Part shown: positions 4,813 through 27,322 of the stretch, piece by piece | Layout of the letters: the number at the start of each line of letters is the position of its first letter | How positions within the stretch are numbered: position 1 is the stretch's first letter | NCBI GenBank assembly: GCA_026996295.1 | Contig: JALWLL010000057.1 | Span: 1 to 44,456, forward strand | Length of the DNA stretch: 44,456 nucleotides | Direction of reading: 5' to 3' | Source of the DNA: Sulfurimonas sp. | GTDB taxonomy: Bacteria > Campylobacterota > Campylobacteria > Campylobacterales > Sulfurimonadaceae | Notes under the pieces: model-generated | What the model saw: the letters and a program-made list of their open reading frames with translations, nothing else | The model's database searches: none | What the model was told of the DNA's origin: nothing | Program-made: the position numbers and the translations under genes

Positions 4813-6063
4813 TTATAACAAATAATCTATACCGATCTTGTGGCAGTATGCATGCAGCATAGCTCTTTCAAAATCGTTGTTGGTGGCATACTGGTAGCCA
4901 AAGCTCTCTTTCCACATAGCATGCTCTTCCATACAAAGATAAAAAAAGACATCTTTATGCCAGGGTTGAAAACTCTCATAAGCATGTTTGAACATCTCCA
5001 CTTTAGTAGCATAGGGGTAAGAGCTTTTCCCGCTGGCATCTTCAAAGGGCATTTGTGTTATTTTACTTTTAAACTCTCTTTCTCTGAGTTGTTTGATCAC
5101 CGGTTTTATAAATGTAAGTGTACCAAAACTTACGAGTGCAACCTCTTGAGGGGTAAAAGTTTGCATAAGCTCTGTATAGACTGCCTCGTATTCATTTAAG
5201 TAGTTTTCATACTCCACTATGGGATGGAAGTGAAAACCCACCTTGACACCTTTGTCGGCTACTTTTCTGGCGGCTTTCAATCGTTTTGTAAGTGAAGCAC
5301 TTAAATGTTCTTCATTTTCGATGATCGTTGGGGTGTTAAGACTCCAGGTGCAGAGTATGTTTTTAGGAACATCGTTTTGCAAAATATATGTGATATTGTC
5401 TGATTTAGTTTTAAACTCCAAAATAACATTTGGATTTTCTTTGGCAAAGGTGAACAAGGCATCTAAAACACCCTCTTTGTTGCCAAACATAAGCGAGTCA
5501 GAAGCTTGCCCCGTACCGATATGGTAGGTTTTGTTTTGATCAAGATTGAGATTTTTGAGTTTTTGGGCAAAACTACTGTCAAAAGTGATGGTGTTTTGGT
5601 TGTAAAAACTTTGAATGGAGCAATAAGAGCAGTCAAAACCGCAACTCTCCACAGCATCTAGTGTCAAAAGGTTGCAACAGCGTGTTTTTTCACTTGCTAC
5701 GGGACAGAGTCCAAGACCAAATCCCTCCTTTTGAGCCACTTTGAAAGTATATTTTTGTTCCTGCGCAATATTTTTTGGTGTAAACTCCTCGTAGGAGTTT
5801 GGCTTGCTTCTGAGAGCTTCATAGTTTTTTTTAAGTCGTGAGAAAACAACTTTTTTATGCTCATGCTCGGGAAATATTGCGTGAAGAGTGTGTTCATCCC
5901 ACATTTGCAGGTCACGTGCCATATCTATGATCTGTTTGAGTTCTTGAAAAGAAAACTTGTAAAAAAATGCTTTTTGTTTTATGAACTCTTGTTCAGAAGT
6001 TGGCAGTTTTGAGAACAAAGTATGTGTAATGGCAGTATTAAATTTATCGGCATATGAATTCAT
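4813..6063 (-). CDS. spore-photolyase-like radical SAM protein
   Basis: 416 residues. The radical SAM cluster motif CX3CX2C is at Cys141, Cys145 and Cys148 (CGFDCSYC), preceded by a conserved Cys-rich stretch (LGLCPVASEKTRCCN). The order of the following segments (YHIGTGQASDSL, VILEFKTKSDNI, LCTWSLNTPTI, GFHFHPIVEYENY) matches the SPL family, whose founding member repairs spore photoproduct in Bacillus. This organism shows no sign of sporulation, so the substrate here is probably another DNA or RNA lesion or a different target. Transcription is leftward into nnrS. The ATG at 6063 starts MNSYADKFN. An upstream 14-bp-stem hairpin separates it from the Sel1 gene. Confidence 0.85.
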   Translation of the reverse strand: MNSYADKFNTAITHTLFSKLPTSEQEFIKQKAFFYKFSFQELKQIIDMARDLQMWDEHTLHAIFPEHEHKKVVFSRLKKNYEALRSKPNSYEEFTPKNIAQEQKYTFKVAQKEGFGLGLCPVASEKTRCCNLLTLDAVESCGFDCSYCSIQSFYNQNTITFDSSFAQKLKNLNLDQNKTYHIGTGQASDSLMFGNKEGVLDALFTFAKENPNVILEFKTKSDNITYILQNDVPKNILCTWSLNTPTIIENEEHLSASLTKRLKAARKVADKGVKVGFHFHPIVEYENYLNEYEAVYTELMQTFTPQEVALVSFGTLTFIKPVIKQLREREFKSKITQMPFEDASGKSSYPYATKVEMFKHAYESFQPWHKDVFFYLCMEEHAMWKESFGYQYATNNDFERAMLHAYCHKIGIDYLL

Positions 6064-20078: not shown

Positions 20079-20113
20079 CTAACTTCTAAGTTTTAGAAGT
20101 TAGTCTTGTTTTT
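20079..20113 (+). terminator. strong intrinsic terminator of tkt
   Basis: CTAACTTCTAA (20079-20089), loop GTT, TTAGAAGTTAG (20093-20103), then TCTTGTTTTT. It is an 11-bp perfect stem plus a T-rich tail. The right arm overlaps the stop codon, and the T-tail the last codons, of the convergent gene. Confidence 0.85.
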
Positions 20114-20449: not shown

Positions 20450-21358
20450 TCATAAATAGTTTAAAACTTCTACACCGATAAAAATAACACCCAAAAAAAG
20501 AACAGAAGAGATAAATACCAGAGCCGTTACGATTTTTGGTTCACAGTCATACAAAGAGGCAAGGTTGACATTGGCGACGGCAAGGGGCATCAGAAGTTCT
20601 ATAAAGATCACACCCTTTATCATAGGGTCAAGTGTAATGTTGTAGAGCAGTGCAAAAGCCAGCAGAGGCAAAAGAACAAATTTAAACCCCACAACCCAAG
20701 AGATAAGGGTTGTGTTTATCTCTTTGATCTTGGTTCCATAGAGGTAGATCCCAAACAAAAAAAGCTGCATGGTCATCGAAGCATACGCTCCCATCATCAA
20801 CATCTTCATAATTGCTTCAGAGGGTTTGTATCCATATACACTTAAGGTGATAGCGGCTATAGCAGCCCATAAAATGGGAAGTTTTACGATGTTAACAAGA
20901 GATCTCTTGACATCAAAGCTTCCCCGTGAGTAAAAATAGACACCGATAGTATAGACCACAAACACATTGACGAGATTGACCACCGTCGTATAGGGGATCG
21001 ATGCCTCCCCGAAGATAGCTATGTTGAGCGGGATACCTAAGTTGCCTGTATTGCCTATGATGGCTGCCACCATGGCGATGGAGTACTCTTTTTTGTGCTT
21101 AAAAAGCCTATGAGCAAAAACAGCAGAAGCGATAAGCGCAATAATCACAATAGCCAAATAGATGCTCGGAGCATACAAAAGTGTTATATCTACTGGGTGG
21201 ATAAGTAATCCCCAGAAGGTGAGAAACACCTGTAAAAAATAAACATTGAGAAGTGTTATGGTTTTATCATCGATTTGTTCTTTAAAACTACGTTTGGCAA
21301 GATAGCCCATAACAATAAAAACATAAATACTTATAATGGAGAAGATAATGGAACTCAT
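20450..21358 (-). CDS. AEC (auxin efflux carrier) family transporter
   Basis: 302 residues, about ten membrane helices. IISIYVFIVMGYLAKRS at the start, an IGNTGNLGIPLNIAIFGE signature near 110, and PLAVANVNLASLYDCEP toward the end are typical of AEC permeases, which export or import small organic anions. The frame runs further upstream to 21475, but that would be antisense across the thioredoxin-like gene and the extra residues look non-coding. The ATG at 21358 gives the family-like start and falls exactly at the edge of the shared palindrome at 21355-21389. It has no ribosome site, so a leaderless mRNA is predicted. Substrate is unknown. Confidence 0.88.
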   Translation of the reverse strand: MSSIIFSIISIYVFIVMGYLAKRSFKEQIDDKTITLLNVYFLQVFLTFWGLLIHPVDITLLYAPSIYLAIVIIALIASAVFAHRLFKHKKEYSIAMVAAIIGNTGNLGIPLNIAIFGEASIPYTTVVNLVNVFVVYTIGVYFYSRGSFDVKRSLVNIVKLPILWAAIAAITLSVYGYKPSEAIMKMLMMGAYASMTMQLFLFGIYLYGTKIKEINTTLISWVVGFKFVLLPLLAFALLYNITLDPMIKGVIFIELLMPLAVANVNLASLYDCEPKIVTALVFISSVLFLGVIFIGVEVLNYL

Positions 21359-21389
21359 AGTGCAATTATACTGTATAATTGCACTATGA
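21355..21389. promoter_or_regulatory. 35-bp palindromic divergent promoter
   Basis: TCATAGTGCAATTATAC (21355-21371), centre T, then its exact reverse complement (21373-21389). It covers both start codons (CAT at 21356-21358, ATG at 21386-21388) and two symmetrical TATAAT boxes (minus strand 21365-21370, plus strand 21374-21379). Start sites six to seven bases downstream fall on the start codons themselves, predicting leaderless mRNAs both ways. It may also be an operator. Confidence 0.8.
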
Positions 21390-21706
21390 ATACTATAGAA
21401 ACACTCCAAGAGACTATAAAAGAAAATATGGCGGTGATGATCTACTTCTCGGCTCCCTCGTGCAATGTATGTCATGCGCTCAAGCCAAAACTTCTAGAAG
21501 CGATAGAGCACAATTTTGAGAAGTTTACAATTATCAGTGTAGATATATCAAAAGAGCAGGAGATCGCAGCACATTACAGCGTTTTTGCCATACCTACCGT
21601 TTTAGTGTTTTTAGAGGGCAGAGAGTTTTTACGCAAATCGCGTCATATGTCGGTTGAAGAGGTGATCCGTGAGATCAAACGCCCTTATGAGATCATGCTC
21701 TCATAA
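21386..21706 (+). CDS. thioredoxin-family protein with CNVC active site
   Basis: 106 residues with a thioredoxin fold. The redox pair is Cys26-Asn-Val-Cys29 (FSAPSCNVCHALKPKL), and the cis-proline segment is FAIPTVLVFLEG. There is no signal peptide, so it is cytoplasmic. The dipeptide between the cysteines (NV rather than GP) suggests a specialised, less reducing or different-partner protein. A longer frame back to 21275 is rejected because the family start fits MNTIETLQE at 21386. It is divergent from the AEC transporter across the palindrome. The 3' end overlaps the convergent trmH-like gene by 14 bp. Confidence 0.9.
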   Translation: MNTIETLQETIKENMAVMIYFSAPSCNVCHALKPKLLEAIEHNFEKFTIISVDISKEQEIAAHYSVFAIPTVLVFLEGREFLRKSRHMSVEEVIREIKRPYEIMLS

Positions 21707-22448
21707 AAGCGATCAGTGCAGCGCTGATGGCAACATTTAAAGACTCCACATCTCTTTGCATGGGGATGATAAGCTTTTTGTTGCACAGCGCTTCAACCTC
21801 ACTACTGAGCCCCTCGCTTTCATTGCCCAAAACAAAAACAGAGCGTTTGGAGGGTTGTATATCGTATATACTCTCTTTGGCATCAAGTGAGAGTGCATAT
21901 ATATCGGTGTTTGAGAACTCCGCTAAAACCCCTTCAAGTGTGTCACAAAAGTAGATAGGGAGTTTAAAGAGTGTGCCGGCACTCGCTTTTACGACCAAAG
22001 GGGAAATTTTTGCCGAGTTCTTTTTGGGTAAAATAATGCCATCGATATTGCCCGCTGCACAGCTTCTTATGATCATACCGAGATTTTGAGGGTTGTGTAT
22101 GCCATCAAGAGCAATAAGTCTAAACTCTTGCATCGTGTATAACTGTTTTGCGTGTTGGTAGGTTTTTGAGTAGATATCGATCGCTACACCCTGATCTTGT
22201 TTGGCGTTTTTACTTATACGCGAGAGGGCACTTTTTTCATGGTAAGTGATCTCTATATTGCGTTGTTTTGCCAGTGTTAGAATCTTTTTTATAGCACCGT
22301 CAGGTTTGTTTGTTTGTGCCAAATGAAGCTTATGAATCTCAATAGAGTTATCTTGAAGCATCTCAACAACCACATTACGCCCATACAGGGTAATGATCTT
22401 TTCAAAAAAAGCTTTTTTCTCTTTATACTCTTGGGAATCTTTCATCAT
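21693..22448 (-). CDS. TrmH/SpoU-family RNA 2'-O-methyltransferase
   Basis: About 251 residues. The SPOUT trefoil-knot motifs are present: LDGIHNPQNLGMIIRSCAAGNIDGIIL, FVLGNESEGLS and IPMQRDVESLNVAISAALIAF. An N-terminal substrate-binding part (about 10-95, YGRNVVVEMLQ...) resembles RlmB-type proteins that methylate 23S rRNA, though a tRNA target is possible. The start is one of GTG 22451, ATG 22448 or ATG 22445; ATG 22448 shares one base with the yaaA stop (TGATG), so coupling is likely. It lies downstream of yaaA on the minus strand. Confidence 0.88.
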   Translation of the reverse strand: MMKDSQEYKEKKAFFEKIITLYGRNVVVEMLQDNSIEIHKLHLAQTNKPDGAIKKILTLAKQRNIEITYHEKSALSRISKNAKQDQGVAIDIYSKTYQHAKQLYTMQEFRLIALDGIHNPQNLGMIIRSCAAGNIDGIILPKKNSAKISPLVVKASAGTLFKLPIYFCDTLEGVLAEFSNTDIYALSLDAKESIYDIQPSKRSVFVLGNESEGLSSEVEALCNKKLIIPMQRDVESLNVAISAALIAFMRA

Positions 22449-23176
22449 CACTCCACTATATTGTAAACTATTTCAGTTTTGTTTTTTATCTTTTTTATCT
22501 CATGAATTTGAAGTGTATCTATCTCCAGACTCATAAATGCCTCGATACTCTCAATCCCGTTTTTTGCAATTTCACGCAGCACTATGCCCCTGTAGGCTTT
22601 TGCCCAGTGACTCACTGTTTTTTCATTTTTTAAAAACTTTAACGTTGTGTAGGGCTTTGTAGCTTTGTAAAACTTCTCATAATAACCTGCACGCAAATCA
22701 AGCACTTCGTGGGAGGCGAGATACAAATCTATTTGATAGGAGAAACGCTCTTTGTAAAATTTCTCCGGTGCAATATCGCCAATAGAGTTGCCCTGTTTTA
22801 CTTTATAGTTGGCAATGGTGTCACCGCCAAGTAAAGGACCGTAAAGATTTGAGAAGATAAGTGTGTTCTCTTGTAAAAACTGCTGAGCATCTGCATCAAG
22901 TTCGTTATATTGAAGATAATCATATGCAACACCCTGATAGCGTTTTATGGCAGGCATAAGCTGTGCATTGAATATATCACAGATATACGGTTCACATTCG
23001 CTGAACTTTTTAAAGCCAAAGAGTTTTTTGATGAGCTCTTTATCTTTTGAGAGCACAATTTCATTGTATCTGCTTAGTATCTCATCTCTGGCACTGAGTG
23101 CTCCAAAGATATCTTTTTTTGCGGCATTGCCGCCGCTGTTTTTTCCTTCTGAGGGGGAGAAAAGGATCTTTAACAT
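22448..23176 (-). CDS. yaaA: YaaA-like peroxide stress protein (DUF328)
   Basis: 242 residues, the family length. The N-terminus MLKILFSPSEGKN matches the YaaA start, and the end of the core (VSHWAKAYRGIVLREIAKNGIES) matches the conserved C-terminal part. In Escherichia YaaA limits free iron during hydrogen peroxide stress and binds DNA. The ATG is preceded by a minus-strand -10 (TATAAT, 23212-23217). It overlaps the trmH-like gene by one base. Divergent from the GAF/HD-GYP gene. Confidence 0.9.
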   Translation of the reverse strand: MLKILFSPSEGKNSGGNAAKKDIFGALSARDEILSRYNEIVLSKDKELIKKLFGFKKFSECEPYICDIFNAQLMPAIKRYQGVAYDYLQYNELDADAQQFLQENTLIFSNLYGPLLGGDTIANYKVKQGNSIGDIAPEKFYKERFSYQIDLYLASHEVLDLRAGYYEKFYKATKPYTTLKFLKNEKTVSHWAKAYRGIVLREIAKNGIESIEAFMSLEIDTLQIHEIKKIKNKTEIVYNIVE

Positions 23177-27294: not shown

Positions 27295-27322
27295 TTTAAA
27301 GCTAAGTTTGCTTAGCTTTAAA
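27295..27322 (+). terminator. 12-bp perfect stem between rpmG and tRNA-Trp
   Basis: TTTAAAGCTAAG (27295-27306), loop TTTG, CTTAGCTTTAAA (27311-27322), ending 4 bp before the tRNA. It could terminate or, more likely, guide cutting of the tRNA from the mRNA. Confidence 0.55.

Follow-up and report, generated by a model that had tools for sequence, protein, structure and literature searches.

The genes for an AEC (auxin efflux carrier) family permease and a thioredoxin-like protein (Trx) of a Sulfurimonas sp. diverge from a gap of 27 bp (21359-21385), and this gap, together with both start codons, lies within one perfect palindrome. Is this symmetry the mark of a regulator that controls both genes, does it work as a switch between them, or does it follow from the way in which two promoters are packed together? 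We approached this question in the window, that is the whole stretch of 44,456 nucleotides that was analysed, and in related loci. In our best reading, which we consider highly probable, the gap holds two abutting divergent sigma-70 promoters that give two predicted leaderless mRNAs, and the perfect palindrome would be a lineage-specific by-product of them, not an operator.

Table 1. Features of the divergent locus (window coordinates)
Feature	Position	Strand	Basis or remarks
AEC family permease, 302 aa	20450..21358	-	PF03547 Mem_trans, E 3e-19; start backed by relatives
Permease start codon (ATG)	21358-21356	-	
Putative start of the AEC transcript, on the A of its ATG	21358	-	inferred from -10 spacing; T at -1, A at +1
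-10 box (TATAAT) of the permease gene, with 6 nt to the ATG	21365..21370	-	sequence; relatives
Perfect odd palindrome with both start codons and both -10 boxes inside	21355..21389		sequence, inverted-repeat scan
-10 box (TATAAT) of the Trx gene, with 6 nt to the ATG	21374..21379	+	sequence; relatives
Putative start of the Trx transcript, on the A of its ATG	21386	+	inferred from -10 spacing; T at -1, A at +1
Thioredoxin start codon (ATG)	21386-21388	+	
Thioredoxin-like protein (Trx), 106 aa, CNVC active-site motif	21386..21706	+	PF00085, E 9e-14

The two genes and the palindrome

The predicted start codons of both genes are supported by relatives. Across compact loci the gap measures 24-29 bp and falls into all three frame classes, and in-frame stops within 27 nt occur in 17 of 30 compact loci for Trx and in 10 of 30 for AEC. 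Residues C26, C29 and P70 of Trx are among the invariant columns of 29 homologues. The protein is strongly conserved in the genus; its score of 53.8 bits is far below the curated thioredoxin cut-off of 96.8, and it perhaps forms a distinct subfamily. In four relatives (L066, L091, L110 and L113) Trx appears directly behind a gene with a YaaA-like end (peroxide-stress protein; judged by eye), and in the window yaaA (22448-23176) lies two genes from Trx. The vicinity of a YaaA-like gene in some relatives suggests a link to oxidative stress.

The palindrome reads TCATAGTGCAATTATAC T GTATAATTGCACTATGA, i.e. two 17-bp arms around T21372. The initial annotation had recognized the arms, the single central T and the presence of both start codons inside, all of which stand; its description of the palindrome as near-perfect was too cautious, since the arms are fully complementary. 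When imperfect extension is allowed, the arms reach 24 nt at 88%. The palindrome is far beyond chance within the window: in 30 simulated first-order Markov windows of the same length and dinucleotide statistics, the largest perfect arm measured 11 bp and was seen once, the other 29 held no arm of 11 bp or more, and none of the shuffled sequences equalled the palindrome. It occurs a single time: in the 2.1-Mb genome, a search that tolerated up to 3 mismatches returned no second copy.

Two further roles were considered for it and rejected. As an RNA element, the palindrome matched microRNA precursors alone in Rfam, with 19-28 bits against a gathering score of 88-89, as any hairpin would. A terminator was discarded as well, as the terminator scan finds none there and divergent genes have no need of one. 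Elsewhere in the window, two more inverted repeats are present, at 20079-20103 (perfect arms of 11 bp) and at 27295-27322 (12 bp); the former, placed between convergent genes and with a T-rich tail, may be a terminator.

Two predicted back-to-back promoters

Each strand of the gap carries one TATAAT hexamer, and 3 bp (21371-21373) separate the two, which gives the layout ATTATA-3 bp-TATAAT already noticed in the first reading of the locus. The symmetric core of the palindrome is explained by these two -10 boxes, which face away from each other. No Shine-Dalgarno sequence precedes either ATG.

This arrangement suggests two separate sigma-70 promoters placed back to back. With each -10 box 6 nt before its own ATG, RNA polymerase would start on the A of each start codon, both mRNAs would be leaderless, and ribosomes would bind the 5'-terminal AUG without a Shine-Dalgarno sequence. 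Since the footprints of the two polymerases overlap, the two directions would never be occupied at the same instant, but expression of each gene would probably be independent of the other at ordinary firing rates. Selection would act on the identity of the box and on its spacing to the ATG; in this lineage alone, chance or local mutation would have made the TGCACT outer arms match, which turned the conserved core into a 35-bp palindrome. The predicted leaderlessness of both mRNAs is well supported by the comparison given below; the start sites, leaderless translation and the independence of the two genes are inferred.

Conservation in related loci

For the comparison we used 110 related loci from a whole-genome search and from named genome contigs, in which some species are repeated. 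They come mostly from Sulfurimonas or Sulfurimonadaceae and mostly from metagenome-assembled genomes; the cultivated S. indica NW8N (L045) is among those in which the gap is compact. The distinct loci comprise 59 with an AEC side and 82 with a Trx side (the 59 beside AEC and 23 without an adjacent AEC), and the counts are not independent because the loci are related by descent. Shine-Dalgarno sequences were sought as simple motifs in the short stretch from -17 to -5 before the ATG, which partly overlaps the space of the -10 box.

On the AEC side, a -10-like box lies 5-7 nt before the ATG in all 59 distinct loci, at exactly 6 nt in 49 of them and with a box score of 6/6 in 50, and a Shine-Dalgarno motif was found in none (0/59). 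The box is kept even where the Trx box has moved away (L016, L018, L022, L054 and L057). In four AEC-side loci it has changed to TAGACT or TAAACT with the 6-nt spacing unchanged; TAAAAT is another of the boxes that replace TATAAT at this distance.

On the Trx side, the close box and the Shine-Dalgarno sequence are nearly exclusive. Among the 82 distinct loci, 44 have a close box without a Shine-Dalgarno sequence, 33 the reverse, one has both and four have neither, and in the Shine-Dalgarno type the -10 box is mostly found 22-28 nt upstream. Beside AEC (n = 59), the close box stands without a Shine-Dalgarno sequence in 32 loci, the Shine-Dalgarno sequence without a close box in 26, and one locus has neither; without an adjacent AEC (n = 23), the respective numbers are 12, 7 and three, and one locus has both. 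Since 12 loci in which no permease was found directly upstream (in L073 because the contig ends there) also have the close box without a Shine-Dalgarno sequence, the Trx signal is independent of the palindrome. On the AEC permease tree the Trx state changes at least six times, a number that is approximate, as the tree is a quick one with many weak forks and its starred branches alone force four changes. T at -1, which fits a T(-1)A(+1) start, is present in 42 of 59 AEC loci and in 31 of 44 leaderless-type Trx loci, but this signal is weak because T also stands at -1 in 20 of 34 leadered Trx ATGs.

The comparison thus backs sigma-70 -10 boxes 5-7 nt before the ATG, and with them the starts at the ATG that had been predicted from box placement; the claim that neither gene has a ribosome binding site likewise agrees with the permease side of all relatives. 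Conserved are the identity of the box and the box-to-ATG spacing; the outer arms of the palindrome are not. Among the loci compared, complete outer arms (TGCACT on both sides) exist only in the window and in its sister L041, and the 17-bp core AATTATACTGTATAATT recurs in many relatives. L041 is the nearest locus (96% identity over the permease gene, 95% over the thioredoxin gene) and its palindrome differs from that of the window in the centre base alone (A for T). At an identity of 95-96%, its arms cannot tell constraint from recent descent. We also matched the six spacer bases of one side with the reverse complement of the other side in 31 distinct compact loci, and the mean agreement was 2.71/6, compared with 2.55 for shuffled partners (P = 0.22). 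With outer arms neither conserved nor symmetric in relatives, the functional unit that the initial annotation had seen in the palindrome is not supported.

The same annotation had proposed to look for the palindrome in other genomes. Of 399 genomes sampled from the order, two contain the exact double pattern CAT-N6-ATTATA-N3-TATAAT-N6-ATG, both times at this locus (L179 included); the pattern takes no account of shorter gaps or of other boxes. It is worth stressing that divergent genes can be separated by a perfect palindrome that is no operator, and that most of the symmetry arises here from two abutting -10 boxes with equal spacing.

Candidate leaderless promoters elsewhere

In a 428-kb sample of this genome with 387 predicted genes, leaderless candidates form a minority: there are 14 cases of TANAAT at 5-7 nt from a candidate ATG, some of them by chance, and TATAAT has its main peak about 25-30 nt upstream. 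A genome-wide leaderless excess, considered for the flanks of the relatives, was rejected: the 6-nt peak of 83 was mainly the locus itself and fell to 13 once this was masked. Two further leaderless candidates are present in the window. In the polyprenyl synthetase gene (17290), TAGAAT precedes the ATG by 5 nt and no clear Shine-Dalgarno sequence is seen; in relatives L044 and L049 the same gene has TATAAT at 5 nt. The other candidate, a 416-aa ORF on the minus strand at 6063 (MNSYADKFNTAITHTLFSKL...), has TAAAAT at a distance of 6 nt from the ATG.

The one-sided pattern (ATTATA, 0-6 bp, TATAAT, 5-7 nt, ATG) was counted 194 times in 60 genomes of the genus versus 52 times in the reversed control, with the contribution of this locus included. 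In L173 (1057-1080), a second divergent pair, encoding a response-regulator-like protein and a P-loop ATPase, has -10 boxes 5-6 nt before both ATGs; in L175 (1124) one side of the same pair shows 29 nt instead of a close box. One could go further and propose a Sulfurimonas promoter class of divergent leaderless pairs that share a 24-29 bp gap, in which polymerase competition would link the permease to the thiol-redox protein and of which the pair in L173 would be a second case, a hint that the arrangement recurs, although we regard this extension as quite unlikely.

Alternative explanations

As to the origin of the perfect arms, a template-switch (quasipalindrome) correction during replication, with one spacer copied onto the other, seems unlikely. 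The spacers of L042, TGCATT and TTCACT, do invite this idea, as each is one base from TGCACT and each change makes the arms alike. On the AEC tree, however, L042 is not the closest relative that the window has, and no special process is needed, since a spacer match of 6/6 is reached in 29% of shuffled pairings.

A mutually exclusive switch, in which polymerase at one promoter shuts the other and the permease and the redox protein are expressed in opposition, is in our view very unlikely. A pair that fires only one way at a time had been suggested at the outset, and its geometric part holds, as predicted starts 28 bp apart mean that the footprints must overlap. Strong activation in one direction can indeed repress the other at E. 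coli bidirectional promoters, but all five of the promoters tested fired too rarely at basal level to compete (PMC12825309), and for this reason we do not adopt the switch. Nor is the coupling conserved: many relatives have boxes further apart (gaps 42-57) or a split gene pair.

It is highly improbable that the main promoters lie further upstream, inside each other's coding sequence, so that the mRNAs are leadered and the close boxes minor. Within the permease gene, the Trx strand does hold a promoter-like ATAACA-17-TATAAT (21309-21337) from which a Trx mRNA with a leader could arise, but its TATAAT is found in one of 30 compact loci, that is in the genome of the window alone. Such a leader would carry no Shine-Dalgarno sequence, and in its RNA the palindrome would probably form a hairpin that covers the start codon.

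Least probable of all is an operator for a dimeric symmetric DNA-binding regulator of both genes, which had also been raised at first and which the two-fold symmetry over 35 bp, the core shared by many relatives and the symmetry retained in L041 would favour: the outer arms of the 31 compact loci are no more symmetric than shuffled pairings, the centre varies in length and sequence (gaps 24-29), the core is just two -10 boxes, the genome has one site, and the scanned neighbours (enzymes, transport or signalling proteins) include no regulator gene.

Comparison with known systems

Palindromic operators between divergent genes resemble the locus in having two-fold symmetric DNA at that place. Here, by contrast, symmetric half-sites are not conserved among orthologous loci, and neither further genomic sites nor a linked regulator gene accompany the palindrome.

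The bidirectional promoters with a symmetric -10 element described by Warman and Grainger (PMC10268837, PMC12825309) are a second related kind. As in our two-promoter reading, divergent sigma-70 transcription arises there from a very short, nearly symmetric, AT-rich element that RNA polymerase binds either way round. In those promoters the starts are 7-25 bp apart (typically 18; PMC10268837), one -10 element is shared and T stands at -18, whereas this locus has two separate TATAAT boxes, predicted starts beyond that range and A at -18 from the predicted start in both directions. Those relatives whose gap is 24 bp would come just within this range.

Both overlapping divergent promoters and leaderless mRNAs have been described before; a literature search with one narrow phrase returned no paper that joins them. 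Leaderless mRNAs of Campylobacterota (C. jejuni, H. pylori) are a further parallel, and the locus behaves like a pair of leaderless promoters. In C. jejuni, dRNA-seq established those with TAnAaT boxes, and a published prediction has Sulfurimonas hold more leaderless mRNAs in common with Campylobacter than with other Helicobacteraceae (PMC3847290). In the portion of that study considered here, neither the AEC nor the Trx gene is named as a leaderless example, and our locus differs in that two divergent genes, leaderless by prediction, have abutting promoters. The published signal, gnTAnaAT 5-9 nt before the ATG, is matched by TATAAT-N6-ATG on both strands and in relatives, apart from the weakly conserved g of 'gn', which is missing on both sides; an ATG start and the lack of a Shine-Dalgarno sequence are shared too. 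Finally, orthologues switch between leaderless and leadered forms in that study, as they appear to do here. The permease keeps its leaderless arrangement in every relative examined and Trx has changed between the leaderless and the Shine-Dalgarno form about six times or more, which makes the locus a natural series for the gain and loss of leaderless mRNAs.
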